From Nitrospina sp. (GTDB lineage: Bacteria; Nitrospinota; Nitrospinia; Nitrospinales; JACRGP01), in the NCBI GenBank assembly GCA_024648695.1, contig JACAVV010000010.1, positions 1-64,000 of the forward strand: DNA of 64,000 bases, written 5' to 3'. This document shows positions 37,741 to 56,009 of this stretch, piece after piece. Within the stretch, counting starts at the first letter, position 1. Each line of letters starts with the position of its first letter. Position numbers and translations under genes: made by a program. The notes beneath the pieces were generated by a model. It was not told the DNA's origin. It saw nothing but the letters and a program-made list of their open reading frames with translations, and ran no database searches.

Positions 37741-37780
37741 TTAAAAAATGGTGGAGGCTCGGGGAAAAAGTTCGAACCCC
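37741..37780 (-). other. Possible attachment site derived from a tmRNA/tRNA 3' end
   Basis: On the minus strand the segment reads GGGGTTCGAAC, then a C-rich stretch, then CCTCCACCA. It looks like the T-loop, acceptor arm and CCA end of a tmRNA or tRNA. No complete RNA gene can be folded upstream. P4-type integrases commonly use ssrA or tRNA 3' ends, with int starting just beyond on the same strand, as here (int start 37600). It is therefore probably an att remnant. Confidence 0.4.
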
Positions 37781-38386: not shown

Positions 38387-39657
38387 TCCTAAAAGCCAGC
38401 CAGCGCGGGGCAGCCAAACAATTAGCCACTCATCTACTTAAGGCAGATGAAAACGAGCATGTCGAGGTGCATGAATTACGGGGTTTCATGGCCGACGACC
38501 TGCACGGTGCTTTAAAAGAAACTCAAGCCATTAGCAAGGGCACGCGCTGTAAGCAATTCCTATTTTCCCTCAGTCTAAACCCACCACAGACTGAAAACGT
38601 TCCTATCAAGCATTTTGAAAACGCTTTGGCAGATATCGAAAAAGAGTTGGGACTGGAAGGCCAGCCCCGTGCCGTGGTGTTTCATGAAAAAGAAGGACGG
38701 AGACACGCCCATTGCGTTTGGTCCCGGATCAATACGGAAAAAATGACGGCTATTAACCTGTCTCACTATAAATATAAACTGAGAGACGTATCCAAACAGC
38801 TCTATCTCAAACATGGCTGGAAAATGCCGCGCGGTCTGATGGATAGTAAGAAGCGCGATCCACGAAACTTCACCCTGGCCGAGTGGCAACAAGCTAAACG
38901 CATGAATGAAGACCCGAAAACTATCAAATCTCTATTTCAGGAATGCTGGGCGGTTTCTGATAGTGGCAAAGCTTTTACCCAGGCTTTGAAGGAAAGAGGA
39001 TTCTATCTGGCCCGAGGCGACCGGCGCGGATTTGTGGCCGTCGATTATCGTGGAGAAGTATTCTCTTTAAGTCGTTGGGTTGGCGTAAAAGCCAAGGAAC
39101 TAAAAAACCGGCTGGGTGATCCCAAGAAGCTTCCTGACACAGAGCAAGTCAAAACCAAAATTGCCAAGAACATGACCAAAATGCTCGAACTCCATATCAA
39201 GGAGGTTCACCAGAAAATAGATAAGAAAAAAGAACCTCTCCTTAAAACCAAGCGGGCCATGCGGGATCACCATAGAAAATATAGAGCGATGCTAAAGGAA
39301 AAACACGAAAAACGCTGGAACCAGGAAACCATAGAACGATCCAAACGACTACCCCGAGGATTGAAAGCCATTTGGTTTCGTCTAACCGGACGATATCAGA
39401 AAATCCGCCGCATAAATGACCGTGAAACCGAGCAATGCCGAATTCGCGACCAGGAGGAAATGCAAGCCCTCAGGGAACGCCAATCAAATGAACGCCAAAA
39501 GCTCCAAGAGCATATCCGTTACGGATTCAAGGAACACAATATGGAACTCTTTGACCTAAGGCGTGACATCAGCCGCTATATGGGAATGAGTGAGAGAGTA
39601 TCTGAGCCAAACAGATCAAGGAAGGAAAAACAAATTATCCATGACCACAACCGATGA
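38383..39657 (+). CDS. mobA: MobP-type relaxase
   Basis: A 424-aa relaxase. The metal-binding triad is present as H101 and H108-x-H110 (VVFHEKEGRRHAHCVWSRIN). The N-terminal SQRGAAKQLATHLLKADENEHV stretch is typical of the MobA/VirD2-like family. The C-terminal ~180 residues are highly charged helices likely to form a coiled coil, with no primase or helicase domain. It nicks at oriT and pilots the strand. No coupling protein or mating-pair genes are visible in the window, so the element would be mobilisable rather than self-transmissible. Confidence 0.85.
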   Translation: MILKASQRGAAKQLATHLLKADENEHVEVHELRGFMADDLHGALKETQAISKGTRCKQFLFSLSLNPPQTENVPIKHFENALADIEKELGLEGQPRAVVFHEKEGRRHAHCVWSRINTEKMTAINLSHYKYKLRDVSKQLYLKHGWKMPRGLMDSKKRDPRNFTLAEWQQAKRMNEDPKTIKSLFQECWAVSDSGKAFTQALKERGFYLARGDRRGFVAVDYRGEVFSLSRWVGVKAKELKNRLGDPKKLPDTEQVKTKIAKNMTKMLELHIKEVHQKIDKKKEPLLKTKRAMRDHHRKYRAMLKEKHEKRWNQETIERSKRLPRGLKAIWFRLTGRYQKIRRINDRETEQCRIRDQEEMQALRERQSNERQKLQEHIRYGFKEHNMELFDLRRDISRYMGMSERVSEPNRSRKEKQIIHDHNR

Positions 39658-39947: not shown

Positions 39948-40913
39948 ATGGCACGAGAACATGTTGACCACAGGGATATAGCCCAATTCGCTCAAGACAG
40001 GGTGAATTTGCCGAAAGAAAAAGCGGATGAATATCGTGCTCAAGTTCGTCGTCTTCGCGAAAAGCTTGAATCTTACCTAAATGTACATCCGGATTTTTCA
40101 TTAAGAAAAATGATGCTATCTGGAAGCTTGGCAAAGGGCACTGCCTTACGGAGTTTAAATGATATCGACGTAGCCTGTTATATCAGTGGAAATGAAGCGC
40201 CTGGTGAAATTTCAGGTTTATTAGATTATCTGGCCGAAAATTTGCGGAAGGCTTTCCCAAATTTCAGTCCAGATCAAGTAAAACCTCAAACTTACAGTGT
40301 TACGGTGTCGTTTAAAGGATCAGGCCTTGATGTTGATGTAGTGCCAATTTTATATCGTGATGACCCAGATTGGTATGGAGATTTGGTAAGCCAGGAAGAT
40401 GGCTCCTTTTTAGAAACCAACATCCCTTATCACCTGGATTTCACAAAAAAGAGAAAGCAAGCCCAGGAAATAAATTTTGCGCAAGTGGTTCGTCTTATAA
40501 AATTCTGGGCCCGAAAGCAAAAAATTGAAAACGAAAATTTTAAATTCAAATCATTTATGATCGAAATGATCTTATCTCATCTCTGTGATGATGGCTGTGA
40601 TTTTTCAGATTACCCAGAGGCACTACAGCACTTTTTTACTTACATTATTCAAAGTGAACTTAAAAACGAGATCGTTTTCTCTGATTATTACAACCCAAGA
40701 GAAATTGAACCCTCATCTGATCCAGTTAGAATTTATGATCCAGTTAATCCCCAAAACAACGTAAGTCGTCTTTATACCGAAAACCAAGCAAGGGCAATTG
40801 TGGATGCGGCTCTCGATGCAGGCGATGCCATTGATGGGGCGCTCGCAGCTCCCACTAAACAGGAAACAATCTACTACTGGCAGAAGGTTTTCGGGCCATC
40901 CTTCCAAGTATGA
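39948..40913 (+). CDS. cdnC: CBASS CD-NTase (cyclic oligonucleotide synthase)
   Basis: A 321-aa nucleotidyltransferase. The active site is complete: G59-S60 in SGSLAKGTALRSL, D72-x-D74 (NDIDVACYI) and the third acidic strand LDVDVVP (D128/D130). The C-terminal OAS1-like helical domain includes VVRLIKFWARKQ. In type III-C CBASS the homologous enzyme, with HORMA bound, makes cyclic tri-AMP, which activates NucC. The HORMA, TRIP13-like and NucC genes follow in the same order here, so the clade C assignment rests on this context. Confidence 0.9.
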   Translation: MAREHVDHRDIAQFAQDRVNLPKEKADEYRAQVRRLREKLESYLNVHPDFSLRKMMLSGSLAKGTALRSLNDIDVACYISGNEAPGEISGLLDYLAENLRKAFPNFSPDQVKPQTYSVTVSFKGSGLDVDVVPILYRDDPDWYGDLVSQEDGSFLETNIPYHLDFTKKRKQAQEINFAQVVRLIKFWARKQKIENENFKFKSFMIEMILSHLCDDGCDFSDYPEALQHFFTYIIQSELKNEIVFSDYYNPREIEPSSDPVRIYDPVNPQNNVSRLYTENQARAIVDAALDAGDAIDGALAAPTKQETIYYWQKVFGPSFQV

Positions 40914-40920
40914 GGTGTTT

Positions 40921-41436
40921 ATGAGCTACAGTTATACTCACTCCGAAACAGTCACCTTCACTGCAACTCACGCAAAACATATGGCAGCGAAGGTCGCTAC
41001 CGATTTAAAACGAATGCAACGATTTTATGGTGAACCCACTGACGAAGCAATCAATGAATTTGAAATCGAAATTATTGAGCTACTTAAAAATGGTTTGTTG
41101 GGAACGGTAAAGTATGGGTTTTATCTTGACGGGGATTTTATCGAGCCAACTTTAATATACACTGCACGATCACTGGAAGGAGTTAACGCAAGTGACGATG
41201 ATCCAGGACGTGTTAGGCCAAACGCTAATATAAGCGGCGCATCTTTCTATAGCTACCTAACATATAGTTCCGCTTGGAGCGATCTATCAGAGGAAGAAAA
41301 GAAAAATTTTAAAGACTCCTTACCGTTTCAAAGAACAAATGGAAGTGAGCCTAGGGTGAATGGCTATATAGAAAATGACAAAACTTATTCTTCTGGGGGA
41401 CGAGCACTTGATCGTTCAAGTGTTAGGAGCTACTGA
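40921..41436 (+). CDS. cap7: CBASS HORMA-domain sensor (Cap7-like)
   Basis: A 171-aa bacterial HORMA protein. Its start SYSYTHSETVTFTATHAKHMAAKVATDLKR, a middle KYGFYLDGDFIEPTLIYTAR and a C-terminal seat-belt region with NGYIENDKTYSSGGRALDRSSV follow the group 1 pattern. HORMA proteins bind closure peptides and switch on the CD-NTase. GAGGTG four bases before the ATG supports this start. The stop codon overlaps the ATPase start (TGATG), so the two are coupled. Confidence 0.85.
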   Translation: MSYSYTHSETVTFTATHAKHMAAKVATDLKRMQRFYGEPTDEAINEFEIEIIELLKNGLLGTVKYGFYLDGDFIEPTLIYTARSLEGVNASDDDPGRVRPNANISGASFYSYLTYSSAWSDLSEEEKKNFKDSLPFQRTNGSEPRVNGYIENDKTYSSGGRALDRSSVRSY

Positions 41437-42368
41437 TGGCTAATTCCAACCAAAATAGCGGGTTGTTTGAGCGTGCCATAACCTATCCCGATATTGACCC
41501 ACAAGAACGTTTCTCTCGTTTGGTTGGCCTGGAGGAACAGAAATCTCGGCTAACGAAAATATTGGGCTTATTAGTCAATCCAAACGGCATTCAAGCCTGG
41601 TCAAATAAATTTCACCCGCAAGCAAATAAAATAATCAACACGATTTTGTCCCGTCCACCTCTTGTGGTCTTGGCAGGTGATGTAGGGTCAGGCAAAACAG
41701 AACTGGCTGAAACAGTGGGCGATGCGGTCGCCAGGCAAGAAAAAATTGATATTACTCTTTTTCCTTTGAGCCTTTCAGCGCGAGGTCAGGGGCGTGTAGG
41801 CGAAATGACTCAGCTCCTTTCCTCAGCATTCGATCATACTGTCTCAGAAGCAAAAAAACTAAAAGGTGCGGATGGTCGCTCCCGAGGCGCGATTATTTTG
41901 TTAGTAGATGAGGCAGACGCTTTGGCTCAATCGAGAGAAACCTCGCAAATGCACCATGAAGATAAGGCAGGTGTAAATGCATTTATCCGTGGAATAGATA
42001 GAATTGGAAATGGAAGGTTGCCAGCCGCCGTTATTATGTGCACTAACAGATTAGGCGCTCTTGATCCTGCCATAAGACGCAGGGCGGCAGATATTTTAGC
42101 TTTTCGTAGGCCCAATGATAAACAAAGACACACTGTCTTGGACTCTCCATTAAAAAGCTTAGGCCTATCGGACTTAGAAATTCAGGAAGTTGTTAAAGCC
42201 ACAGGCAACAATGGTGAGCAGTCCTATGGCTTTACATTTTCAGATTTAACTCAGCGCTTAATACCTCGAATTGTACTGGATGCCTATCCCGATAATCCTA
42301 TAAGCGGAAAAAGAGTTGTTCTCATCGCTCATAAAATGAAGCCAACACCACCCTTTAAGGAAAATTAA
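41436..42368 (+). CDS. cap6: CBASS TRIP13-like AAA+ ATPase (Cap6-like)
   Basis: A 310-aa Pch2/TRIP13-type AAA+ protein: Walker A GDVGSGKT (81-88), Walker B IILLVDEADALA, sensor-1 MCTNRLGALDP and the arginine finger in AIRRRAADI. In CBASS III it disassembles the HORMA-CD-NTase complex and keeps the system silent until infection. It is compact because it lacks a long N-terminal domain. Confidence 0.9.
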   Translation: MANSNQNSGLFERAITYPDIDPQERFSRLVGLEEQKSRLTKILGLLVNPNGIQAWSNKFHPQANKIINTILSRPPLVVLAGDVGSGKTELAETVGDAVARQEKIDITLFPLSLSARGQGRVGEMTQLLSSAFDHTVSEAKKLKGADGRSRGAIILLVDEADALAQSRETSQMHHEDKAGVNAFIRGIDRIGNGRLPAAVIMCTNRLGALDPAIRRRAADILAFRRPNDKQRHTVLDSPLKSLGLSDLEIQEVVKATGNNGEQSYGFTFSDLTQRLIPRIVLDAYPDNPISGKRVVLIAHKMKPTPPFKEN

Positions 42369-42375
42369 ATATCCT

Positions 42376-43116
42376 ATGGAACGCACCAAAGGAAGCAACG
42401 AGTGGGATTTGCCTGTAATTCTTGCCTCTCTAAATGACGACCTTGAGCAGGACCTATCCATCTCTAGAGAGGCTTTTAAACACCCGGGGACAAAAGGAGA
42501 TGCAAGCGAAACTACTTGGATGGATTTGCTCACAAAATATCTTCCTAAACGATATCAAATCGAAACAGGTCATATTGTTGACAGTAAAGGCGTGTTCAGC
42601 CAACAAATCGATGTGGTTATATTTGATCGACAATACTCCCCCTTTATTTTTGATTTCAAGGGACAGAAAATAATTCCGGCTGAAAGCGTTTATGCTGTGT
42701 TTGAGGCGAAGCAGGACGCTAATAAAGAAAGAATTGAATATGCTCGAAAAAAAATTTCCAGTGTTCGCCGTCTTCACCGAACGAGCCTTCCTATTCCTCA
42801 TGCTGGAGGAACATATCCGCCAAAACCTTTACCACATATTATTGGCGGAATATTAACCTTGGAGAGCACATGGAATCCTCCTTTAGGAATTGCCCTTCAG
42901 GAAGTGCTGGAAAATAATGAATTTGACGATGAATTGCTGGATCTGGGGTGCTTTGCTGCCCATGGAACTTTCGAATTAAAACATGGGGAATATTTTTTTA
43001 AAGAAAATAACAAACCAGTAACTTATTTTCTTTTCGAACTCATTGCTAGACTTCAATCTAGCGCAACAGTGCCCATGATAGATATTCGAGCCTATTCTGA
43101 CTGGTTGACCAAATAA
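42376..43116 (+). CDS. nucC: CBASS effector nuclease NucC
   Basis: A 246-aa restriction-fold endonuclease. The active site is D79 in QQIDVVIFDRQYSPFIF and E110-A-K112 in VYAVFEAK, the ID-x30-EAK pattern. The RLHRTSLPIPHAGGTYP block, recalled as nearly invariant in E. coli NucC, is present. NucC trimers join into hexamers when cyclic tri-AMP binds, and then cleave double-stranded DNA to kill the infected cell. It is the last gene of the operon, seven bases after the ATPase. All key residues are intact, so the system should be functional. Confidence 0.93.
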   Translation: MERTKGSNEWDLPVILASLNDDLEQDLSISREAFKHPGTKGDASETTWMDLLTKYLPKRYQIETGHIVDSKGVFSQQIDVVIFDRQYSPFIFDFKGQKIIPAESVYAVFEAKQDANKERIEYARKKISSVRRLHRTSLPIPHAGGTYPPKPLPHIIGGILTLESTWNPPLGIALQEVLENNEFDDELLDLGCFAAHGTFELKHGEYFFKENNKPVTYFLFELIARLQSSATVPMIDIRAYSDWLTK

Positions 43117-43184
43117 ATCTCGTTCAAAGTTATTTTTAATTCATCGATTCAAATTGGAAGGTGGAAGCCTTCCTCACAATTAGT

Positions 43185-43502
43185 CACTACCACCGGTTTT
43201 GGGCCGGTGCCAAATTTTGTACTCCCTACCCCTCATCTTTTTTCCTCTTTCCCGGAATTCCCCTTCCCGGTCGGTAAACTTTTCAAAGCGGGTTGATCGG
43301 CTTTCCCCTGGCCGTTGTAATGGCCGCTCCTTCATCGGGTTTTCTCAAATTTCATGCTTCTTTTAGCCGGTCGCGCCGCCGCGTCAATGGGCTGGCCCGC
43401 TCCATGCACTTCGCTTCCGTGTGGCCCATGACACGTCGGCTTATTCGCCCGGCAGACCTTCTCCGCATGTTGAGAAAACCCTCAAACCAAAGGAGCAAGG
43501 CC
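43185..43502 (+). promoter_or_regulatory. Hairpin-rich leader upstream of ardC
   Basis: About 320 bases of GC-rich non-coding DNA, unlike its AT-rich surroundings. It contains several short hairpins: CACCGG-N7-CCGGTG (43191-43209), GGCC-N8-GGCC and GGGC-TG-GCCC. An open frame from 43293 runs through it into ardC, but the real start is 43503. Strongly folded leaders before antirestriction genes suggest a single-strand-active promoter, used as transferred DNA enters the recipient. Confidence 0.4.
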
Positions 43503-44408
43503 ATGAAAAACAAGACTGCCAAAGCCGACATTTACACCCGCATTACAAACCAGATTGTTGCCGACCTGGAAACCGGGGTACTCCCTTGGGTGAAACCCTG
43601 GCATAGCGACCATGCTATGGACCGAATCACCCGCCCCCTTCGCCATAATGGCGAGCCGTACTCAGGCATCAACATCCTAAGCCTCTGGTCATCCGCAAGC
43701 GCTCAGGGTTTTACATCCCCGAGTTGGATGACCTTTAAGCAGGCTCAGGAATTGAAAGCCTCCGTACGCAAAGGTGAAAAGGGTTCTCTGGTGGTCTATG
43801 CCAATAAGTTCACCCGCACCGAGGAAAACGAAAACGGGGAGGACGTGGAACGCGCCATCCCCTTCCTGAAAGGCTACACCGTTTTCAACGTCGAGCAGAT
43901 CGACGGTCTTCCCGAGCGTTTCTACGCCAAACCGGAACCGCGCTTCGATACGGTGCAACGGATAGGGCACGCGGAAGCGTTCTTCAAGGATACCGGCGCA
44001 GATATCCGGCATGGCGGCAATCGAGCTTTCTACGCAATCCATCCTAACTATGTACAGATGCCTCTGTTTGAGGCGTTCCGCGATTCCGAAAGCTACTATG
44101 CCACCCTCGCTCACGAGTGCACCCACTGGACGCGCCACCCCTCTCGCCTTGACCGGGATTTCGGTCGAAAAAAACATGGCGATGAGGGTTACGCAAAAGA
44201 AGAACTCGTGGCTGAACTCGGAGCGGCTTTTCTTTGCGCCGACCTTGAGATCACGCTGGAGGCCCGCGACGACCATGCTTCCTATATCGCCTCCTGGCTC
44301 AAAGTTCTGAAAGATGACACGCGGGCAATCTTCCACGCCGCCGCCCATGCCCAGCGCGCGGTGGACTTCCTTCACTCCCTGCAAAAAGCAAAAAAAGAGG
44401 CGGCATAA
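43503..44408 (+). CDS. ardC: Antirestriction protein ArdC-like metallopeptidase
   Basis: A 301-aa protein with two domains: an N-terminal ssDNA-binding ArdC domain (IYTRITNQIVADLETGVLPWVKPW, SGINILSLW) and a C-terminal zincin with H204-E-x-x-H208 (TLAHECTHWT) and a downstream EELVAELGAAFL Glu helix as third ligand. ArdC shields incoming DNA from host restriction. The start at 43503 is preceded by AAGGAG. It is a leading-region gene of the mobile element, next to CBASS. Confidence 0.9.
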   Translation: MKNKTAKADIYTRITNQIVADLETGVLPWVKPWHSDHAMDRITRPLRHNGEPYSGINILSLWSSASAQGFTSPSWMTFKQAQELKASVRKGEKGSLVVYANKFTRTEENENGEDVERAIPFLKGYTVFNVEQIDGLPERFYAKPEPRFDTVQRIGHAEAFFKDTGADIRHGGNRAFYAIHPNYVQMPLFEAFRDSESYYATLAHECTHWTRHPSRLDRDFGRKKHGDEGYAKEELVAELGAAFLCADLEITLEARDDHASYIASWLKVLKDDTRAIFHAAAHAQRAVDFLHSLQKAKKEAA

Positions 44409-44444
44409 GCCGCCTCTTCAAGCCCCTCGAAAGAGGGGCTTTTC
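44397..44444 (+). terminator. Double terminator after ardC
   Basis: The first hairpin, GAGGCGGC-ATAA-GCCGCCTC, spans the stop codon. The second, AAGCCCCTC-GAAA-GAGGGGCTT, ends in TTTT-type tails. Both stems are perfect. Confidence 0.88.
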
Positions 44445-44470
44445 TCCTTAACTAAACCGCCCTAGTTAAA

Positions 44471-44573
44471 ATGCGGAGCTTAAGGGGTATATTCTACGCA
44501 TAATTTGCGAAGAATAATTCTTGCCGATGCGGAGAATATCGGGCATAATCTATGCATAAGGTGCGGAGATTAT
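44471..44573. promoter_or_regulatory. Six-copy operator upstream of fic gene
   Basis: The motif TGCG-N-AGAATAT occurs six times, in both orientations: forward at 44471 (partial), 44504, 44526 and 44561; reverse at 44489-44501 and 44545-44559. The 44489-44517 and 44545-44573 pairs form near-palindromes with TAAT or TAAGG centres. The cluster abuts the ATG of fic. It probably binds the C-terminal HTH of the Fic protein itself. Confidence 0.7.
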
Positions 44574-44577
44574 ACAG

Positions 44578-45684
44578 ATGAAATACATACACGAATTAAA
44601 AAAATGGCCTGAATTCTACTGGGAACAGGACCGTCTCACGGAAAAACTCGCTTATGTGCGCCACCATCAGGGGCGCTTGATCGGGCAAATGGAAACTCTC
44701 GGTTTTCAACTCCGGTCTGAGGCCATTTTACAGACACTCACAGAAGACGTTCTCAAATCCAGCGAAATCGAAGGCGAAATCCTGGACAAGGAACAGGTTC
44801 GCTCTTCCATCGCCCGGCACTTAGGCATGGATATTAGCGGGCTTATCCCCGCTGACCGAGACGTTGAAGGGGTGGTCGAGATGATGCTGGATGCGACTCA
44901 GAACTATGCCAAGAAACTTACAAAGGAACGCTTGTTTGATTGGCATGCGTCCCTCTTCCCTACCGGGCGGAGCGGGATGGGAAAAATTCGTGTCGCTAAA
45001 TGGCGAGACGACAAGTCAGGACCCATGCAGGTCGTCTCCGGTCCCATTGGCAGGGAAAAAGTTCATTACGAAGCGCCACCTGCAAAACAGGTGAATGCTG
45101 AAATGCGAGAATTTCTGACTTGGCTCAACCGCAAGGATTCCATGGACCTAGTATTGAAAGCGGCCTTGGCTCATTTATGGTTCGTTACTATCCATCCCTT
45201 CGAAGATGGTAACGGACGAATTGGCCGAGCAATCACCGACCAGTTACTGGCCCGATCAGAGGATAGCTCCCAACGGTTTTATAGTATGTCAGCGCAAATT
45301 CGGGCGGAACGGAAAGCCTATTACAATATTCTTGAAATGACCCAGAAAGGTAATCTGGATATTACCAACTGGCTCGAGTGGTTTCTGGATTGTCTGGACC
45401 GGGCGATTGGTGGAGCAGAAACTATTCTTGGTGACGTACTACAAAAAGCGCGGTTTTGGGAACTGCATCGAGACACAAAATTCAACGACCGCCAGCGTCA
45501 AATATTAAATCGCCTCTTCGATGGTTTTGAAGGAAAACTGACATCTTCCAAATGGGCGAAGCTTACGAAAGTTTCACAAGACACCGCTGTTCGCGATATT
45601 GATGATCTCGTTAAACGCGGCATCCTGGTCAAAAATCCAGGCGGTGGACGTAGTACCAATTATTCTCTGACTGAGATTGCATAG
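44578..45684 (+). CDS. fic: Fic-domain AMPylase with C-terminal winged HTH
   Basis: A 368-aa class II Fic protein. The autoinhibitory helix motif S/T-x-x-x-E-G is S61-E65-G66 (KSSEIEGE). The catalytic loop is HPFEDGNGRIGR (206-217), fully conserved. An N-terminal Fic/DOC-type helical domain (LAYVRHHQGRLIGQ) and a C-terminal winged HTH (KLTKVSQDTAVRDIDDLVKRGIL) flank it. It transfers AMP to protein targets when inhibition is released. The HTH plus the repeated operator just upstream suggests autoregulation. It lies between the antirestriction gene and the efflux operon, and could be a defence or addiction module. Confidence 0.9.
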   Translation: MKYIHELKKWPEFYWEQDRLTEKLAYVRHHQGRLIGQMETLGFQLRSEAILQTLTEDVLKSSEIEGEILDKEQVRSSIARHLGMDISGLIPADRDVEGVVEMMLDATQNYAKKLTKERLFDWHASLFPTGRSGMGKIRVAKWRDDKSGPMQVVSGPIGREKVHYEAPPAKQVNAEMREFLTWLNRKDSMDLVLKAALAHLWFVTIHPFEDGNGRIGRAITDQLLARSEDSSQRFYSMSAQIRAERKAYYNILEMTQKGNLDITNWLEWFLDCLDRAIGGAETILGDVLQKARFWELHRDTKFNDRQRQILNRLFDGFEGKLTSSKWAKLTKVSQDTAVRDIDDLVKRGILVKNPGGGRSTNYSLTEIA

Positions 45685-45869: not shown

Positions 45870-48800
45870 TCAGGACACTTTTAAACGTTTTTCATTGGCG
45901 CGGTCTTCAACTTTGAATGGTCCAAATTTAAGGTAAAACGCAGGAAGAAGAAACAGGTTCAAAATAGTGGATGTCACAAGCCCACCCAATATCACAATAG
46001 CAAGTGGATACTCGATTTCCTGGCCCGGTTGCAGGCCAGTGAGGATTATTGGCACCAGAGCCAGCCCGGTGGTCAATGCGGTCATCAGGATGGGGGCCAA
46101 CCGTTCCCGCGCTCCCCGAATGACGAGGTCCCTTCCAAACGGAACATTTTCCTCTGCTTCCAAATACTGGTAATGACTGACGAGCATAATGGTGTTGCGA
46201 ATGGCAATGCCAAGAACCGTGATGAAACCGATCTGCGATCCCAGTGAAATCATGCCATCGCTTGCAATGACGCCCATCACCCCACCCACGAGGGCGAAGG
46301 GAACCGCCAGGACAACCAGCAAAGCTAAACCCAGGGATTCAAACTGTGCGTGCAGAATGAGGACAACTCCAAGAAATACAAGTATCGAAAGTTTAAGGAT
46401 TCTAAAACTCGCTTCACGTTTGGCGGCAAATTCTCCCAAAAATTCCGGAAAATATCCCTGCGGAAACTCAATGCCCTTAACGGCGTTTTCCACGGCGCGG
46501 GCTACACTACCGAGATCGCGACCTGTGACGTTGCAGGTAACATCGATTTTTCTAGAACCCGCTTCCCGGGTGATCTGGTTGGGCGTTGGTCGGATTGTCA
46601 AATCGGCAATTTGCTCAAGGGGGATTTTCCCGCCCAATGGGGTTTCCACGATTATGGAACGCAAATCGTGAACGTTCTGCCGGAGCTTTGGGACCCCCCG
46701 AACCACCACGTCATCCACTCTCTGATCATGGTATATCTCACCCACTTTAGTTCCCTGGATAAGAGTCGTCACCGCGCGCCGGACTTCGCCGGGACTGACA
46801 CCGAACAAGGCACCGGCTTCATTTTTAATCCGGACCTCAATCTGGGGCACCAGAACCTGAGGTTGGACCTTAAGATCAGAGACTCCCTCAATAAGAGCCA
46901 TCGAATTGCCTGCCTCAACAGCGAGGGCCTGGAGCTTTTCAAGATCATTCCCATAAATTCGCACTACCAGCGTAGAACCAGAACCGGTCAGGACTTCCTT
47001 GATTCGCTCCCGCAAATAGGTGAGGAGATCACGATACAGTCCTGGATAACCGTCCACCACCTTTTGAATGCGTTGCACGGTCGAATCGTAATCCACCAAT
47101 GGATCAAGATGGACCCACAACTCAGCAAAATTTGGACCCACCACTTCATCGGCTACTTCCGCGCGGCCAATGTGTGCGCCAAAGTTCTGAACACCCGGGA
47201 TACGGAGCAGTTCATGGCTCACCCGTTTGGTGGTGCGAGTTGTGGCTTCCAATGAAGTTCCGGGTTTTTCAACCCAATGCATTAGAAAATCGTATTCCTT
47301 GAATTTCGGTAAAAATTCTTCACCCAGATACGGTGTCAATGAAATCGTCACCCCTATTACACCTATTGCAAAAACCATCAAGGCTTTAGGAAAACTAATA
47401 AAAGGACCAAGGACTTTCCCATACAGCCATTGCAGGGAGGACTGCAAAATCGACTGCCCCTGATTTTTCCGTGCTGCTCGGGGAAGCAGTATCAGAGACA
47501 ATGCAGGCGTTAGGGTCAGAGCCACCAACAGAGAAGCACCTATCGCCAGTACATAGGACAAAGCCAGCGGTGAAAAAAAAGCTCCCACCAGTCCCTCCAG
47601 GAAAAACACCGGGAAAACTACCAGTGCCACGATCATGCTTCCGTAGACCACGGCACTTCTGACTTCCAAAGTCGCTTTCAGGACTACATGGAATTCGCTT
47701 TCGGGGAAACCCGCTTCGGCGTTCAATCGAAGGCGGCGCATGCTGTTTTCCACACAGATGATGGCGTCGTCCACGACACTTCCCAAAGCAATGATCAATC
47801 CCGCCAGAACCATAGTATTGAGTGTCTCTCCACGGGAAAACAAGACTAGCAGGGCGGAAATCAGAGACAGAGGGATGGCGGTGATGCTGACGAGAGAAGT
47901 TCTCCAGTCATTGAGAAACAGGATCAGAACCAAGGTCACAAGAAGACAGCCGATTACCAGTGCGTGGAGGAGGTTGCGCAGGGACATTTCGATAAAAGTT
48001 GCGGGCCGGAAAATACCCGGAATGATCTGGATACCGCTGAGTGCGGGGCGCAGGGTCTCAAGTGTTTTTTCAATTTGGTGCGTCACCTCATACGTGTTGC
48101 CCCATGGTTGTTTTTCAACAATCAGCAACAGCCCGGACTCTCCGTTTATAACGGCATCTCCAATTGGAGGGGGATAGCTTTCCACGACATCCGTGACGTC
48201 CCCCAATGTTAGAGGAGCACCCCCCCTGAGGCCAATCGCTACATTTTCCAGATGATGCGGACTCTGTATGGAGGAAGAATGAGTGATAGCCAACCGTTGA
48301 TTGGGAGTGTCGAGGTACCCGCCTCCATGAATCGCTACCGCATCGCCCGTTGCGCGGAGAATTTCATTCAAGCTCACTTCGTTGGCTGCCAGGCGGTCGG
48401 GATCGACCAGAATCTGAAATTGGGAGTCCCGCTGGCCCCAGATGGCAACATTGGCTACTCCGGGAATAGCCATCAATCGCGGGCGAACCGTCCATTTAGC
48501 CAGTGTGGTCATCTCCATCTGAGACAATTGACTGGAAGTCATTCCTATTTTAAGTATGCGGCTTGTGGAGGAAAGAGGGGAAAGGATCACCGGCGTCAGG
48601 GCGACTGCGGGCAACAGGGCCGGAGCACGGGACAAACGCTCCTGGACCAGTTGCCGGGCCTGACTTAAATCCGTGCCTGCCTCGAAAATGAGAGTTACGG
48701 ATGACAGACCCAGCACAGATTTGGAACGAAGGGTCTTGAGCCAGGTAGTTCCGTTGAGCAAGCTTTCCAGTGGAACGGTGACGCGGGCCTCCACTTCAGC

Positions 48801-48974
48801 AGTGGACAACCCCGGGGCTTCGGTCTGGATTTCAACGAGGGGATTGGAAAATTCCGGGAAGACGTCCAGAGGGGATTTCTGCACAACGGAGATTCCTACA
48901 ACGATCAACAAAATGCCCAGTACAGCAGTAATCGTCCGGAAACGGAGTGCGGTGGAAACGAGACCTTGAATCAT
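45870..48974 (-). CDS. Heavy-metal-type RND efflux pump inner-membrane subunit
   Basis: A 1034-aa HAE/HME-type RND transporter. TM1 is followed by two large periplasmic domains and two six-helix bundles. Helix 4 carries [15 protein letters not shown] with the acidic pair needed for proton relay. It is CusA/CzcA-like in the N-terminal [19 protein letters not shown] region. I do not see the CusA copper-binding methionines clearly, so the metal or compound is uncertain. It overlaps the adaptor gene by 4 bp; the order OMF-MFP-RND is complete. Confidence 0.88.
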
Positions 48975-50266
48975 TTGCCGTTTCCAAATTCCACTCCGAA
49001 CAATTCTGCGGCTCCGGAAATGACTACACGTTTACCCTTTCCGGGCCCACGAGTGAGGACAACCGAATCGTCTTCCGTTGAAGATATTTCGATGCTCCTC
49101 CTTATGAATTCATGGCCACGGGTGTTTTCATAGACCCAGGTTTCGCCTCGGGAATCGTACAGGACCGCCGAACTCGGCAGAAACCATCCCTTTTTCTTGC
49201 GTTTTAGTTTCAATGTGGCGGCTACCTTCTGCCCTGGATGGAAGGTTTTCTGATCGGTGGGCAATTCGAAATACAAATCTACAGAGGCGGCTTGGGGATT
49301 CCCGGTCGGAGGAGCCAAAACGGGAATAGCTGTCCAACCACCAGATGGTTTCATGTTCGAGAGGCTGTGGACCCGAACTGAATCTTTTTGTCTCACCCGA
49401 TTTACTATCCCCGCGTAAACAGGAACGCGGACCCACAAGGGTTTTTCCGAAGCAATCTGAAACAGCGGGCTGCCTGCCGATACTCTCTGGCCAGGAGCAA
49501 CCAGTAGATTTTGGAGTCTCCCCTCGATAGGAGCATTAATTTCAAAGGGTGCGAACTCTTCAATGGAAGCACTGATGTCCTGATTGGCAATTAAATCTAC
49601 CAATACCTTTGCTTGTCGCAAATCTGTGCGGGAATTTTGTAATTCATTCCAGGCCTCTTCTTTGGCCCTAAGGCTTCCCGCTCCTTTATTTAGTAATTGT
49701 TCCGCCCTCTGGAATTTCTGTTCGGCAAATCGAGTTCTGTTTTCCGCCAGCTTCAGGCTGTTCCGTGCGGTCAACACATCCTTGTCCGGAGGCAACATTA
49801 AAAGCCTCAGCATTTTCTGGTTTTTTTGGAAGGTGGAGCCAACCATTGGCAATGGAGAATTTGCAGGGGCCAAAACCACTCCGGATATTGGTGCGGAAAC
49901 CGACAGGGTCTTTCCTGGAGGAATGATGACTTCTCCTCCCAGGGTCCGGGTTTCAAAATATGCCCCTGGCTTTAACACGACAGTTTTGATTCCCAGGCTT
50001 TCTGATTCTTCACCTGTCAAGGTGATGGACCGGGACGCACCTTGATGCGGAGATTGCCGGGTCGGAGTTTTATCAGGGGAAACCTGTTTAGGAGGGGTTT
50101 CCTGGTTTTCTAAAACAAGGAAAGCGATGCGATCCGATATTTTTTTTACATTGTCCGGCAGGGCATCGCACCCGTAAAGTCCGGACGCCAACAGAAACCC
50201 AATCAGCAAACTCCTAAAACGTTGGGCTCGAATAGGGGCAAATTGTATCATGTAGTCGGACTCCAT
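48971..50266 (-). CDS. RND efflux membrane-fusion lipoprotein
   Basis: A 431-aa periplasmic adaptor. The signal ends at a lipobox (LYGC, Cys about residue 33). Lipoyl/barrel-sandwich halves flank a helical hairpin ([22 protein letters not shown]...[13 protein letters not shown]), and a beta-barrel and membrane-proximal domain follow ([14 protein letters not shown]). It bridges the pump and the outer-membrane channel. Its start overlaps the OMF stop by 19 bp. Confidence 0.88.
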
Positions 50267-51648
50267 AAATCGATAGGCCGACCAATACTTATTCCAAGGT
50301 CAGCCGTCTTCCGCATCAAGTCCCCCATGACCTCTATTTGTCGCAATTGGGCATCGATCCATTGCCGTTTTGCTTCCAAAAGAGTCATGTAAGCAATATC
50401 CCCTTTTTCCAGTGCCTGAGCGGACAACAAAACTCTGGCTTCCTGTTGTGGAAGAACTTGCCGATTAAAAAGTTCCCAGCCTTCAAGTGCGGCCAGGTAT
50501 TGTGTGTGTGTTTCGCGAACGGCCAGTTTGATTTTCTCGCGGATGGCCACATATTGTTTGCCGGCGGTCTCCAGTTGCGCCTCGGCACGGGTGATACCCC
50601 CCTCGTTTTGGTTGAAAATAGGCAAATCCATCGAAATCCCTGGTCCCAGTTGGTTGTCCATCGCTCTTTTATCCAGGATTCCAATAAAATTAAAAATGCT
50701 GGATTGTTCAAGGCCAATCTGTTGACCTGCCGATTTGATATCAATTTCTGCCATGCGCAGTTCAGGGCTGGATTCAAAGGCAATTTTTAGCAAATCGTCA
50801 ATTCCTCTAACTTCGTAATAAAGGGGGACTTCTTCAGACAGATAAAAATTGGTATTGTTATCAATCCCAAGCAATGCGATCAGACGGTGATGAAACACCT
50901 GACCGTCATACCGCAGTCGATTAAGTTGATCTCGTGCGGCCAGGGAGTCAATTTGGGTTTGCTTGCGTTCCATTTCGCTGGTATCGCCCAATTCCAATCG
51001 CGCCTGATTGATTTCCGATAACTTCTCCATTAGGTCAGCCTTACTTTTAGCCAGGGGCAAGGCTTTCTGGTTTTGAAAAAGGTTGGCAAAAGCCACTTGA
51101 GTGTCTCGGGTGAGTGTGAGTCCGTTTTGAATTAATTTGTTTGCCGTTTGCCGTGCTTTCAATGCAGCGATAGCCAGCCTGTGGGGTCTGGCCAGAAGCT
51201 CCGAGAAAGCCCAAAAGAGTCGAACTTCGAGTTGTCTCAACCCTATGGGAAACAGGACATAGAAATTAGGATTTTTAATCTGCCCGGCTTGCAACACCTC
51301 ACCCCTTGCAATTCCCAGCTGGCCCAGGTCTGCTATGAATTGAGCATTGTTCCAGAGGGCAATCGCGACGGCTTCTTTTTCACTCAACCCATCTTCCAGG
51401 GAAATGTCCTGAGGGAGATGGCTTTTCTTTTCATCGCTTTCCGGCGGGAGACTTACTCCCACGTTATTTTCCAACCCTGTAGACACCTGTTTGTAGTTAG
51501 ACTCTGGAATATTAAGGGTGCAACCAGTTAATAAAATTAATAGGAATAGTGTAAATATTCGAAATTGTCTCCGTGCCCCAACAAGGGGAACCGGAGGGAT
51601 AATGGCTTTCTTGCGCCAGATCGGATTTTTCAGAATGCCCATGACCAA
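50248..51648 (-). CDS. TolC-family outer-membrane efflux lipoprotein
   Basis: A 466-aa outer-membrane factor. Signal and lipobox (ILLTGC) are near residue 43, and an acidic start region follows (ISLEDGLSEKEAVAIALWNN). Two repeats of long helices and strands contain LRMAEIDIKSAGQQIGLEQSS, the OEP signature position. As the first gene of the efflux operon it lies 141 bp downstream of the sensor kinase gene, behind the direct repeats at 51720-51751. Confidence 0.85.
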   Translation of the reverse strand: MVMGILKNPIWRKKAIIPPVPLVGARRQFRIFTLFLLILLTGCTLNIPESNYKQVSTGLENNVGVSLPPESDEKKSHLPQDISLEDGLSEKEAVAIALWNNAQFIADLGQLGIARGEVLQAGQIKNPNFYVLFPIGLRQLEVRLFWAFSELLARPHRLAIAALKARQTANKLIQNGLTLTRDTQVAFANLFQNQKALPLAKSKADLMEKLSEINQARLELGDTSEMERKQTQIDSLAARDQLNRLRYDGQVFHHRLIALLGIDNNTNFYLSEEVPLYYEVRGIDDLLKIAFESSPELRMAEIDIKSAGQQIGLEQSSIFNFIGILDKRAMDNQLGPGISMDLPIFNQNEGGITRAEAQLETAGKQYVAIREKIKLAVRETHTQYLAALEGWELFNRQVLPQQEARVLLSAQALEKGDIAYMTLLEAKRQWIDAQLRQIEVMGDLMRKTADLGISIGRPIDLWSPTT

Positions 51649-51719
51649 GAATAAATATGAAATATAGAGAGTCAGTTATTTTTGAATATAAAGTTTACAG
51701 AAGCGGACCTTATACAAGC

Positions 51720-51751
51720 GTTAAGGAACCGTTAAGAAACTGTTAAACGGC
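51720..51751 (-). promoter_or_regulatory. Three GTTAA repeats, 11-bp period (response-regulator box)
   Basis: GTTAAGGAACC, GTTAAGAAACT and GTTAAACGGC stand head to tail, exactly 11 bp apart, 72 bp before the start of the efflux operon. Tandem heptamers one helical turn apart are the normal target of OmpR/PhoB-type regulators, and one is encoded just upstream. Confidence 0.65.
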
Positions 51752-51789
51752 AAGAGAATTTTGGGGTTAATTACTTAAGAAAGGAGGGG

Positions 51790-53070
51790 TTATTCGGGTA
51801 GGGAGAAAACCACTTTAAACCGGCAACCCTGGGGGTGAATCGCTTCATAATAAATTTTCCAACCATGGTAATCACATATCCGTTTCACAATCGACAAACC
51901 AAGCCCTTCACCGCTCCCTGTAGCGTCGGCGGATTCGACCTGATAATGGCGATCAAAAATGGCATTTTTGTATTCTTCAGGAATGCCCCGTCCGGAATCT
52001 TCCACGCTAATCGAATCCGAATCGATCAAAACCAGAATTTCTCCCTGACGGGCATGATGGAGCGCATTCCTCAATAAATTACGGAGGGCTACTCGGAATA
52101 GTTGTGGAATACCCCGGACTTTGGGTGGGGCATTTAGGTGAAGGCGAGTTTTAGCACCATGAGACTCGGCTGCAGTGCGGATATCTTCAACTTCCTCAGA
52201 GGCGATCTCCGTAGCGTCAAAATCAAGAAAGTTTTTCTCTGTATTTTTGGAATCCCGGGACAGAACCAGAAAAGTCTCGACCAGGGACTGCATTTCTTTC
52301 GAAGACCGTCGGATTCGCTGAATTATTTCAATTCTATGATCGTCGCTATCCTTAGTTTCCAATAACAGTTCACAGGAACTGGAAATTACCATCAAGGGAG
52401 TTCGCAATTCGTGACTGACATCTCCAGTGAAAGCCTTTTCCCGGCCCAAGAATTCTTGAAGCGTTCGGGCATATTGAGTGATGGTAACTGCCAACAACCC
52501 GACTTCATCGTTGGTAAAATCCTGGCTGAGCTTTCCTAGGCGGGAATCGTCGGGATGTGCCTGTCGAACGCGGTTGGATAATTCGATGACGGGTGCAATG
52601 ACCCGGTTTGCGGTGAGGAAACCCAGCCAGAGTGACCCGGCCAGAGCGACAATAAATCCAATGCCGATGACGGCCCCAACGGTATCTTCCAGTTTTTCAA
52701 ATTCGGTCTGGTCCTGAACCAGGAAATATCGAACATCTCCCACTTTCCGGACAATTACAAAATAGGCCTCATCAGCCAGTTCGACCTCAGCACGATCCTC
52801 CTTCATGTTCTTCAACCAATCCGGTAAGTCATGGTCCTGATTTCCTTCAACCCGATACACCCCGGAACCGGGAGGAAGAGAAGCTGTTTGATCCTGTTGA
52901 GTGGATTGAATCAGCCAGTCAGCATTGCGTTCCAAGTGATTGTAAAAAAGTTCACGCTCCAGGCCATCAATCATAAGGAAAACAAAAAAGGCAAAAGTAC
53001 CTTCCAAAAAAAGAGTTAGGAAAAAAAACGAGACAACCACGCGTTTTTTGAGTGAATGGCGAAATTTCAT
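51790..53070 (-). CDS. Sensor histidine kinase of efflux two-component system
   Basis: A 426-aa kinase. It has TM1, a short periplasmic sensor domain (~residues 35-130), TM2 (VGAVIGIGFIVALAGSLWLG) and HAMP (ELSNRVRQ). HisKA contains the phospho-His in VSHELRTPLMVISSS, and the N (LRNLLRNALHH), G1 (VEDSGRGIP) and G2 (GEGLGLSIVKRI) boxes are present. It resembles QseC/CusS-type kinases. It overlaps the response regulator by 4 bp. The sensor loop is small and without evident metal-binding His or Cys clusters. Confidence 0.85.
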   Translation of the reverse strand: MKFRHSLKKRVVVSFFFLTLFLEGTFAFFVFLMIDGLERELFYNHLERNADWLIQSTQQDQTASLPPGSGVYRVEGNQDHDLPDWLKNMKEDRAEVELADEAYFVIVRKVGDVRYFLVQDQTEFEKLEDTVGAVIGIGFIVALAGSLWLGFLTANRVIAPVIELSNRVRQAHPDDSRLGKLSQDFTNDEVGLLAVTITQYARTLQEFLGREKAFTGDVSHELRTPLMVISSSCELLLETKDSDDHRIEIIQRIRRSSKEMQSLVETFLVLSRDSKNTEKNFLDFDATEIASEEVEDIRTAAESHGAKTRLHLNAPPKVRGIPQLFRVALRNLLRNALHHARQGEILVLIDSDSISVEDSGRGIPEEYKNAIFDRHYQVESADATGSGEGLGLSIVKRICDYHGWKIYYEAIHPQGCRFKVVFSLPE

Positions 53071-53747
53071 TTGGAAGAATCCACCAACCGGTAACCAACC
53101 CGGGATACCGTTAATAGAGAGTTGAGGTTGAAAGGTTTGTCGATGGCTTGGCGCAGTGAATGGATATGAACACGCAACACATCACTCTCCAAAAGAGTAT
53201 CGCCCCAAACAAACTCTTCCAGTATTCCCTTTTTAACCAGGTCCGGCGAGGCACGCATAAGGCATTCAAGGATTTTTATTGCCGTTGGCCCCACCTTGAT
53301 TGGGTTATCGCCTCGGTGAAGCTCCAGGGTTCTGGTATTTAAAATCAGGTCGCCTGACTTCAAGATTGCGCCGTCCTGCACATTTCGGCTTCTTTTGATA
53401 ACCGCTTCCAGGCGTGCTTTCAATTCAGATAGATCAAATGGCTTAACCAGATAATCGTCTGCACCGGCTTCAAAACCCTCCAGTTTATCTTCGATACGGT
53501 CTCGCGCGGTTAACATGATGATGGGGGTTTGGTTCTGCGCATCCGTCCGCAACCTCCGACATAAGGTAATCCCGTCGATTCCCGGCAGCATCAAGTCGAG
53601 TATGATCAAGTCGAAATCCTGGGTTGCGGCCAGGTGCAATCCTGTCAGACCGTCCTCCGCGCAATCCGTGATATAACCGCAGGCATTAAAATATTCTGAA
53701 AGATTTTTGAGAATATCTGGATTATCTTCAATTAGAAGGATTTTCAT
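53067..53747 (-). CDS. OmpR-family response regulator
   Basis: 226 aa. The receiver domain has acidic residues E7-D8, phospho-Asp D51 (LIILDLMLPGIDG) and Lys in YLVKPF. The C-terminal winged helix is of OmpR type (PIKVGPTAIKILECLMRASPDLV, RVHIHSLRQAIDKPF, VSRVGYRLV). It probably activates the downstream efflux operon via the 11-bp repeats. Confidence 0.9.
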   Translation of the reverse strand: MKILLIEDNPDILKNLSEYFNACGYITDCAEDGLTGLHLAATQDFDLIILDLMLPGIDGITLCRRLRTDAQNQTPIIMLTARDRIEDKLEGFEAGADDYLVKPFDLSELKARLEAVIKRSRNVQDGAILKSGDLILNTRTLELHRGDNPIKVGPTAIKILECLMRASPDLVKKGILEEFVWGDTLLESDVLRVHIHSLRQAIDKPFNLNSLLTVSRVGYRLVDSSK

Positions 53748-54098
53748 AAACCTAGGATAACTTATATTGCCAGACTAGGAAAACGTGATTTTTTTTGGGA
53801 ATTAATAATTAACACTAATAAAAATATTATGCTTAAAAGGGTTTATGGCTCAAGAGCGTGTGAACCTGCCAGATTGCGGAGACGGATTGAAAAATTTTTT
53901 CCACTTTTATGGATTTGATGCATGCTCTGGGACTAAGTTGGGTTCAGCTGTGATATTTAGAGCCATGGACATCCATGCTCAAAGAAACCTCACAGAGTAT
54001 TTCACCTCCCGCAGTATGCAAACGACCCTCGCGTAGAATCGGCGCTCTTCATTTAGGGTCCAGAACCAAAGTCAAAATCCCGGTATAAGAACGTACGC
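53748..54098. other. Intergenic region right of the two-component system
   Basis: About 350 bases. A 63-codon open frame at 53845-54036, with AAAAGGG before its ATG, cannot be related to any family, so I leave it unannotated. The region presumably carries the promoter of the response regulator. Confidence 0.35.
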
Positions 54099-54128
54099 AA
54101 GATGTGTGTTGTACTACAACACGATCTT
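54099..54128. repeat. Long inverted repeat next to hairpin array
   Basis: An almost perfect 30-bp palindrome. The core arms GTGTTGTA/TACAACAC (54106-54113, 54115-54122) surround one base, and AAGAT/ATCTT flank them at 54099-54103 and 54124-54128. It could be a dimeric operator, a replication or nick-associated site, or part of the following structured region. Confidence 0.6.
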
Positions 54129-54133
54129 GGCAA

Positions 54134-54484
54134 GGGGACCCGCTGCGCGTCCCCATTGCATCCCCTCGGCCTGTGGCGCAAGTCAGGTATTGTGCCTTTT
54201 TGCGCCAGTGAAACGTTTCGCCGTTTCATCACTCGCACCGTTTGGCCGGTGCATCACCAGTCAGGGGAGCATTCCTCCCCAAGACCAAGGGGCATTTCAT
54301 TCCCCTTGGAACCCCCTGACCGGCTGTTTCGCCACCCGGCTCGCGAGCAAAGGGAGATGTCGGTTCTCCCTTTTGCAATTCCCATCGACCAAACGTTCCG
54401 CCGTTGGATCACAGCCAACGTTTCCGCCCATTGGATTACGGCCAGCGTTTCGACGCTGGACCCCGACCAAGGTTGCGCCCTTGG
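54134..54484. repeat. Array of short hairpins with ~6-nt loops
   Basis: At least nine compact hairpins follow each other. Clear ones: GGGGAC/GTCCCC (54134-54154), TGAAACG/CGTTTCA (54209-54228, loop TTTCGC), GCACCG/CGGTGC (54235-54252, loop TTTGGC), GGGGAG/CTCCCC (54264-54280), CCAAGGGG/CCCCTTGG (54285-54309), AAAGGGAG/CTCCCTTT (54349-54373), CCAAACG/CGTTGG (54389-54407, loop TTCCGC), CCAGCG/CGCTGG (54442-54459, loop TTTCGA), CCAAGG/CCTTGG (54467-54484, loop TTGCGC). The last units repeat every 25-27 bp. Stem sequences differ but stay paired. No coding function is seen. Confidence 0.8.
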
Positions 54485-54527: not shown

Positions 54528-54731
54528 TTAAAGGCCCACTTTCGGATTCCATTGGCTTGCAAAGCGCAGGTTCAACTCACGTTGAATATTTTCCAATGAT
54601 GCCAAGGCATTCCGGCGTTCGGGTGAACCCGGTTTGCTTTGGATCAATTCTTGAAAAACTTTCCTGTAAAGCCCCTGCAATTGTTTGAGGCTGAGCCGTC
54701 CCAATTCGTTGGTAGTGATGAGTGTTGTCAT
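54528..54731 (-). CDS. Small conserved mobile-element protein
   Basis: A 67-aa protein with LGRLSLKQLQGLYRKVFQEL and a SPERRNALASLENIQRELN helix. I recall similar short helical proteins beside antirestriction genes on genomic islands, but their function is not known. AAAGGA eight bases before the ATG supports real translation. The hairpin array lies directly past its 3' end. Confidence 0.65.
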   Translation of the reverse strand: MTTLITTNELGRLSLKQLQGLYRKVFQELIQSKPGSPERRNALASLENIQRELNLRFASQWNPKVGL

Positions 54732-55109
54732 TTTCTTTTCCTTTAATTTTGGTAGGCCCGACTACCGGATGCCTTTCTCACCCACACACCCATCGGAAAG
54801 GCAGAGGTTGTGGTGGCTGGAGGAATTAAAGGAAATGAAAAATGATTGCCGAGACGCGGTTCCCTGAATTGGGCGGTTCGAGTCCCCTATGCGGTTTAAA
54901 TAGGGCTCCATATTTAAAATTGTTTTTCGGGAATTGAAGTGTGTCTGGCATCAATAGAAACTTCCAAAAGGCACTTCTTCTTGTCGTTCATAATAAGTGA
55001 ACTATTCGTCTAAAAACCTCCGGCTGGTTCTATGCTTTCAGGGGGATTTAGTAGCGTTAAAAACACATCGAAAATGATTAATATGAAATTGGGGAAAAAG
55101 AAATTTCCG
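54732..55109. other. Non-coding region left of ardA leader
   Basis: About 380 bases without a supportable gene. A GGTTCGAGTCCCC stretch near 54881-54893 resembles a tRNA T-loop but does not fold into a tRNA. Confidence 0.35.
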
Positions 55110-55480
55110 GGCGCATCCGGTTTTGTCAAACCGGTCAGGCTCTATGTTCTAAGGCCTTTGGGCGAGTCCAAAGACCAAGAACACCGAACCCCTTGAAAGG
55201 TTTCGGCCCATGCGGGTTACGATCCTTTGCGTGAATTAGGTGCTATCGCGCCTTATTGGTTTCGCTTTAGGCGGTTCCCCCTCGCGCGGGTCAAGGCACC
55301 GCTTGCGCTCTGCAAAAGCCGTATCCCCACCTTTCCGCGTTTCGTTTTACTCCACTTGTGCAAGGCGGGTGATCCCCCTCGGCTTTCTTCGGCCTGGACC
55401 CTTGCTCACCCCCCGTTCGCCACGTGGCAGGGGTTATATGCACACCGCTTCGCGGGGCATAAACCCCATTAACCACAAGG
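55110..55480 (+). promoter_or_regulatory. Hairpin-rich leader upstream of ardA
   Basis: Structured GC-rich non-coding DNA. It contains CCGGTTT-TGTC-AAACCGG (55117-55134), CTTTGG-GCGAGT-CCAAAG (55156-55173, 6-nt loop), AGGTGC-N4-GCGCCT (about 55229) and further GC hairpins. It resembles the region before ardC in composition and position. Confidence 0.4.
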
Positions 55481-55502: not shown

Positions 55503-56009
55503 ATGACTATTTTTTATGCACAACCCTATGACATGAGCGCAAATGGTTTCTATTTTGAAAGTTTTAAGGAATATCAGGAGAAGGCTAAAAAGGCCGTAAA
55601 TAGTTATGGAGACCCCGTTGAGGAATTTGAACTTATGTTCATCGATGGGGAAGCGATCGACTGCCAGTTTTTTGAGGCTATCGGCATAAACCAAGCCAAT
55701 ATAAGTCCAGCCATTGAAGCCGCCGAAAATTATGACGAATGGCAGAAAATAAATATCATTATCGCTGTCGGTGAATGCGGATTCGATTTTGATTTAGAAA
55801 ATGGCGACCCGGACGATTTTGATATCGACCTTTATGAAATGGATAGCATGAAGGAATTGGCCGAGCATTTTATAGACGAAGGGCTTTTCGGAGAAATCCC
55901 GGATCAATTAGCCTTTTATATAGATTTTGCCGCTATCGCCCGTGATTTGAGCGTTGATTATAGCGAAGTCTCTATTGCCGGTAAAAACCTGATCTACCGA
56001 TGCGGCTAA
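55503..56009 (+). CDS. ardA: Antirestriction protein ArdA
   Basis: 168 aa, strongly acidic (many Asp/Glu, e.g. FDFDLENGDPDDFDIDLYEMD), as expected for a DNA mimic that occupies type I restriction enzymes. Family features: a YDEWQKINIIIAVGECGFD segment, LAEHFIDEGLFGEIP and the C-terminal YIDFAAIARDLSVDY. AAAGGAACGAGG precedes the ATG. The preceding folded leader and the perfect terminator make it a monocistronic leading-region gene. Confidence 0.9.
   Translation: MTIFYAQPYDMSANGFYFESFKEYQEKAKKAVNSYGDPVEEFELMFIDGEAIDCQFFEAIGINQANISPAIEAAENYDEWQKINIIIAVGECGFDFDLENGDPDDFDIDLYEMDSMKELAEHFIDEGLFGEIPDQLAFYIDFAAIARDLSVDYSEVSIAGKNLIYRCG

Follow-up and report, generated by a model that had tools for sequence, protein, structure and literature searches.

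Which function is served by a row of small hairpins that differ in their stems and resemble each other in their loops? In the window, i.e., the whole stretch of 64,000 nt of Nitrospina sp. DNA that was analysed (GenBank JACAVV010000010.1, positions 1 to 64,000), a first-pass annotation made from the sequence alone had described such a row at 54134-54484, and it is indeed there. A mechanical search combined with folding places about ten hairpins between 54174 and 54484. Nine perfect hairpins (stem of at least 6 bp) occur in the 349 nt that follow a conserved core sequence, vs. 1.4 ± 1.1 in 200 dinucleotide shuffles (maximum five), and the flanks of the array carry one or two per 440 nt. The annotation had suggested a comparison of folding energy with shuffled sequence: folded as DNA, a 406-nt stretch lies 6.0 (+ strand) and 6.9 (− strand) standard deviations below its shuffles, none of 100 shuffles being as good.

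The array opens with a long hairpin, TGGCGCA...TGCGCCA, enclosing a small inner one (54174-54207), which was recognised by folding and has equivalents in other loci. The array proper (54209-54484, + strand), delimited by mechanical search and fold, has homologues elsewhere in Nitrospinia and at more than 100 loci. Perfect stems are found at 54209-54228 (TGAAACG/CGTTTCA), 54235-54252 (GCACCG/CGGTGC), 54264-54280, 54285-54309, 54349-54373, 54389-54407 (CCAACG-type), 54442-54459 (CCAGCG(T)/(A)CGCTGG) and 54467-54484 (CCAAGG/CCTTGG), all on the + strand, as is the imperfect stem CCAACG...CCATTGG with one C.A mispair (54415-54434). All the stems named in the first-pass annotation (TGAAACG, GCACCG, CCAACG-type, CCAGCG and CCAAGG) are thus present, and its period of ~26 bp at 54389-54484 agrees with the 25-27 bp that separate the last four units. 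Its statement that the second arm is always complementary applies to most units and is slightly too strong, because unit 54415-54434 carries the C.A mispair; the row is also less regular than described, some units being longer (54174-54207, 54264-54280, 54285-54309, 54349-54373) or nested. Moreover, the structure begins earlier, with two more hairpins (54098-54129 and 54130-54159) that constitute the core on the 5′ side.

Downstream of the array, a small ORF (MTTLITTNELGRLSLKQLQ...) at 54532-54732 on the − strand has relatives in three other loci (L060, L071 and L107). That the array would be the 3′ untranslated region of this ORF was rejected, as homologues of the ORF adjoin an array in only one other locus. 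A GC-rich non-coding stretch at 55090-55460 contains further hairpin-like sequences, with short matches in Sedimenticola and Parasphingorhabdus plasmids.

The core is a conserved sequence of ~70 nt (54097-54164) with the layout GCAAGATGTG-hairpin-(C)ATCTTG, followed by GCAAGGGG...CCCC(G)TTGC and then ATCCC. In the window, the first hairpin, GCAAGAT...(GTGTTGT act ACAACAC)...ATCTTG, occupies 54097-54129 and the second one, with the inverted repeat GCAAGGGGAC / GTCCCCATTGC, 54130-54159; the predicted nick region, CATCCC(C), lies at 54159-54165 (all on the + strand). The outer GCAAGATGTG of the first hairpin is kept in 118 distinct sequences, among which no conservation extends more than about 12 nt 5′ of it. 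A 69-nt consensus of the core matches nine plasmids. On four small plasmids, from Nitrosospira, Desulfosarcina, Methylomagnum and Frigidibacter, the match lies just upstream of an annotated mobC and relaxase gene, and MOB-suite assigns three of the four to type MOBP. The relaxase is the first long ORF after the core in eight of 99 loci. In MOBP nick sites, an inverted repeat is followed at once by (C/T)ATCCTG(C/T), and the relaxase becomes bound to the 5′ end (PMC3772185). The core shares the inverted repeat and (C/T)ATCC, with TG replaced by C/T; both arms are altered together in Rhizobium ruizarguesonis (GGAAAAC/GTTTTCC), where the nick region reads CATCCTT. As the core is situated upstream of mobC and a MOBP relaxase on small plasmids and ends in an inverted repeat plus (C/T)ATCC, we read it as very probably an origin of transfer (oriT) with which the array is associated. 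Gene context and nick-site layout predict that it is most likely of the MOBP type, CATCCC(C) being the equivalent of (C/T)ATCCTG(C/T), with the nick predicted at its 3′ end; a relaxase gene is present in the same element.

This element, in which the window's copy of the array is located, is a mobilizable element of ~39.6 kb that extends from 37748 to contig position 77379 and is integrated at ssrA. Its left attachment-site copy is an 11-bp repeat, ATGGTGGAGGC (37748-37758), with the partner at contig position 77379, at the 3′ end of ssrA; its right end comprises VirD4/TraG and a large serine recombinase reading into ssrA. Near the left end are mobC (38006-38386, + strand; PF05713), for a relaxosome protein, and the gene for a MOBP-type relaxase (38383-39657, + strand; PF03432), whose best NCBIfam match, TraI_MobP, is weak; the predicted oriT is ~15 kb away in the same element. 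The association of the array with oriT, the mobC/relaxase pair (38006-39657) and the large serine recombinase (outside the window) had been overlooked in the first pass. The cargo at 39948-45684 (+ strand) includes CBASS (cyclase, HORMA, TRIP13, NucC), ArdC and Fic genes; the CBASS genes, with HORMA, TRIP13 and a NucC-type effector, lie directly behind the relaxase gene (39948-43116). An RND-type efflux cluster and a two-component system, read from the ORFs, stand between Fic and oriT on the − strand (45870-53747). The first long ORF after the array is an ArdA-type antirestriction gene (55503-56009, + strand; PF07275, E 1.7e-7); ArdA also follows core and array in a Rhodobacteraceae locus (L033), with 59% identity. 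Inspection of the element's listed ORFs revealed no mating-pair genes. Just outside the left end, a broken P4-type integrase gene (Arm-DNA-bind_3; 36946-37600, − strand) is perhaps what remains of another island.

Elsewhere, the 5′ side of the core often carries genes for VirD4 (30 loci) or large serine recombinases (16 loci), and its 3′ side those for type I methyltransferase, type IIG, Fic, ArdA or other defence functions; besides the mobilization genes, no neighbouring gene family is common to the loci.

How widely are core and array distributed? By blastn, the array and its relatives were found in four of the 61 genomes searched, viz. the window's own and three more from the same order, and on plasmids of Devosia, Rhizobium etli and Tritonibacter; the part of the array region most widely common to these relatives is its 5′ end. 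The core pattern occurs in at least 119 DNA stretches in genome contigs and in seven more in IMG/VR contigs. The matches listed are mostly from Alphaproteobacteria, many of them from metagenome bins; the other records listed are, by their titles, from gamma- and betaproteobacteria, Nitrospirales, Nitrospinia, Acidobacteriia, Puniceicoccaceae and Leptolyngbya. Of 385 genomes sampled evenly from the class to which the Thioclava genome belongs, five were positive, the seed genome counted in, and the phages and E. coli genomes searched gave no match. Core and array occur together in more than 100 loci from several phyla, the array directly following, in fixed orientation, a conserved core that accompanies mobC and MOBP relaxases. 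In Frigidibacter and several genome loci, it sits between the core and mobC/relaxase.

A frequent array module was found once per genome in 15 of 26 genomes, and not at all in a reversed-pattern control. Searching plasmids with module sequences yielded arrays in R. ruizarguesonis (where the core has diverged), in Bradyrhizobium and in a Planctomycetes plasmid; in the latter, the array stands directly before mobC-relaxase, with traG further on, and no core fitting the pattern was found. The cores of Nitrosospira, Desulfosarcina and Methylomagnum come without an array, which is therefore not indispensable. In eight loci, a DnaA-box-like sequence, TGTGGATA, is present at most 150 nt after the array.

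Across loci, the hairpins of the array are under selection for both their fold and their 6-nt loop. In 132 loci, hairpin density is about threefold the background within 400 nt on the 3′ side of the core, and no higher than background 5′ of the core or beyond 400 nt; as enrichment is confined to 0-400 nt 3′ of the core, the hairpins have a fixed position relative to the predicted oriT. The array contains 321 6-nt loops, vs. 53 in an equal length of downstream DNA, and these are carried by 118 different stems; the loop consensus is T(T/A)TCGC, with the variants CTTCGC, GTTCCT and NNTNCC. Instances of the loop motif are flanked by a stem (at least four of five pairs) in 67% of cases in the array vs. 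1.7% in downstream controls (132 loci). After de-duplication, pairing in the array exceeds that of permuted arms by 18.8 standard deviations, and no such excess exists upstream or downstream of it.

Covariation was assessed by pair counts in place of a covariance model, because the units are ~20 nt long and their stems vary. We used 71 distinct 18-mers, picked by their loop only from a random draw of 90 distinct instances; the other 19, with the loop variant CATCG(C/T), were left out as this variant coincides with a spacer motif, CATCG. In this set, 155 helix cells are changed on both sides, vs. 70.3 ± 6.6 in shuffles, and the covariation score is 0.627 vs. 0.213, a value reached by none of 500 shuffles; all slid controls are far lower. 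Orthologous hairpins in other Nitrospinia likewise differ by compensated pairs, e.g., CCAGCG/CGCTGG and CCAATA/TATTGG. Selection on the fold, as the first-pass annotation had proposed, is thus supported by covariation and by the stem-flanked loops across loci; the outcome it had set against its reading, i.e., relatives devoid of hairpins or a folding energy no better than that of shuffles, was not what we found. Module types recur between different loci, and the arrays of close relatives differ by whole modules. The module CCAACC...GGATTGG, extant in the arrays of many loci, has a conserved C.A mispair.

We consider it probable that the array acts during transfer and not as an independent RNA gene. 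More tentatively, and by analogy with known systems, we suggest that it is a single-strand-active flank of oriT, the hairpins of which may act as single-stranded DNA (ssDNA) in conjugation and provide start sites for second-strand synthesis; amongst the ssDNA roles, this one is favoured because it fits the position of the array best. The relaxase would nick the + strand after (C/T)ATCC, and, given a nick there, the array would be the first DNA to enter the recipient, at the head of the transfer strand, where it would fold into a row of stem-loops. These would be redundant single-strand origins for the complementary strand, the recipient's RNA polymerase or primase being captured by the fixed loop on interchangeable stems, and a succession of different hairpins would be suited to a broad range of hosts. 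Against such a role, the array loop is not known to match CS-6, the sequence found in established single-strand origins. If priming occurs shortly behind the nick, the circle would be converted in a single pass, and not before it has recircularised; the same has been proposed for sso1 of ICEBs1, the stem-loops of which, downstream of oriT, have been tested and aid second-strand synthesis (PMC4595007). That the array hairpins prime complementary-strand synthesis is a suggestion we hold with rather less than even confidence. The polarity of transfer rests on the nick motif; as a rule, relaxase genes lie in the lagging region (PMC11541004), and by this rule the polarity would be reversed and the array would come last on the transfer strand.

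A fixed loop on covarying stems is a typical mark of structured RNA, and the array could instead be a non-coding RNA or a transcribed region in which a protein reads the 6-nt loop of the hairpins. As RNA, the arrays fold 3.6-3.9 standard deviations better than shuffles on either strand, but the designed hairpins fold equally well on both, and neither folding energy nor designed-pair probability indicates a preferred strand of action. Stem mispairs on the + strand are A.C in 43 cases vs. G.T in eight (p 7e-7). The strand that folds may be the opposite one, either as DNA or as RNA transcribed from the transfer strand, since the A.C excess would fit wobble pairs there; in a − strand transcript, templated by the predicted transfer strand, both this excess and the C.A of CCAACC...GGATTGG would be G.U pairs. 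However, the bias could be mutational or, as the + strand spacers are C-rich, compositional in origin. No conserved promoter was found beside the array on either side or strand and no enrichment of sigma-70-like signals at arrays; the absence of a conserved promoter fits action as DNA. At its distal end, which is variable (41 to 508 nt), the array borders on unrelated genes, and Rfam yielded no family at gathering or lenient thresholds (one chance match, 17.5 bits vs. a cut-off of 104). We therefore regard an RNA function as unlikely.

The repeated units with a fixed loop would also suggest repeated binding of one protein, e.g., an accessory protein of the relaxosome or transfer machinery that presents, paces or protects the transfer strand, or the hairpins could shield it from recipient nucleases; the frequent position between oriT and mobC/relaxase agrees with this. 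The loci have only mobilization genes in common as neighbours, however, and some cores of the family lack an array, so that such a role, too, appears improbable. Still less do we expect promoters like Frpo, which drives the early genes of leading regions (PMC11541004, PMC9849209) and, here, would switch on downstream anti-defence genes while the element is single-stranded. The array does adjoin oriT, often with ArdA, HsdM or other restriction or defence genes directly downstream, but −35 and −10 boxes cannot be rebuilt in stems as short as 6-9 bp, promoter-like signals are not enriched, and in 75 of 114 loci the first long ORF downstream points away from oriT, in which case, under the predicted polarity, the transfer strand would not be its template (as for ygfA of F). 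It is equally doubtful in our eyes that the hairpins are a recombination landing pad into which cargo is inserted as into folded attC/attI. Arrays stop at different points, followed by unrelated cargo, and close relatives differ by whole modules, yet 95 of 98 strict consensus hairpins lie inside the array and do not recur beyond the cargo, and the element uses a serine recombinase of its own to integrate at a different site, ssrA.

If the array does provide start sites on single-stranded DNA, it would bear on ssDNA entry and conversion, the step of conjugation about which least is known beyond a few model plasmids. From Alphaproteobacteria to Nitrospinota, it offers a concrete experimental target, a conserved modular structure beside a predicted nick, and it is carried along with restriction, CBASS and anti-restriction genes on mobilizable elements. 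The core is a searchable oriT signature by which defence islands can be recognised as mobilizable where they would otherwise be annotated as non-mobilizable, e.g., on the Devosia and Tritonibacter plasmids. More speculatively still, the array might represent a new class of conjugation element, in which an array linked to oriT combines interchangeable stems with one recognition loop and is read as ssDNA (or as an RNA copy) by a host factor common to many phyla, by which mobilizable defence islands would be helped to establish in very different recipients. A search of the open-licence literature by topic and by sequence found no published description of the array.

The array shares with CRISPR, REP/BIME and integron attC sites the rows of hairpin-forming repeats, but its stems are not conserved in sequence and there is one array per genome. 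CRISPR was rejected on account of stems that differ from unit to unit and of the genes examined, which include no cas system, and an integron because no cassettes lie between the hairpins, which do not recur beyond the cargo. That the array matches no standard repeat class, as originally remarked, therefore stands: it is neither CRISPR nor integron nor an Rfam family. With the Frpo/ssi promoters of the F and ColIb-P9 leading regions, it has in common structured non-coding DNA near oriT, with anti-restriction genes nearby. Frpo is one long stem-loop with −35 and −10 boxes, whereas the array consists of many 6-9-bp stems without such boxes and the genes downstream of it mostly run away from oriT, on which grounds we rejected it as an Frpo promoter.

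The core resembles the MOBP oriTs (RP4, VirD2 borders, Tfs4 and the predicted oriT of Paracoccus pMARC2/pAES4) in its inverted repeat followed by (C/T)ATCC and in its location upstream of mobC/relaxase, but here ATCC is followed by C or T-rich sequence and not by TG. In the parts of the Paracoccus report considered here, the predicted oriT has a similar GGGGGATTG...GGGGGCC/GGCCCCC layout, and a hairpin array is not mentioned in them (PMC3832669). Like the array, sso1 of ICEBs1 and the single-strand origins (sso) found in rolling-circle plasmids are non-coding stem-loops; the likeness is one of position and of stem-loops, with no sequence relation apparent. In its integrating element, sso1 follows oriT and is used for second-strand synthesis once transfer has taken place (PMC4595007), but it comprises three defined stem-loops, whereas the hairpins of the array described here are small and interchangeable, number up to about ten and share a 6-nt loop.
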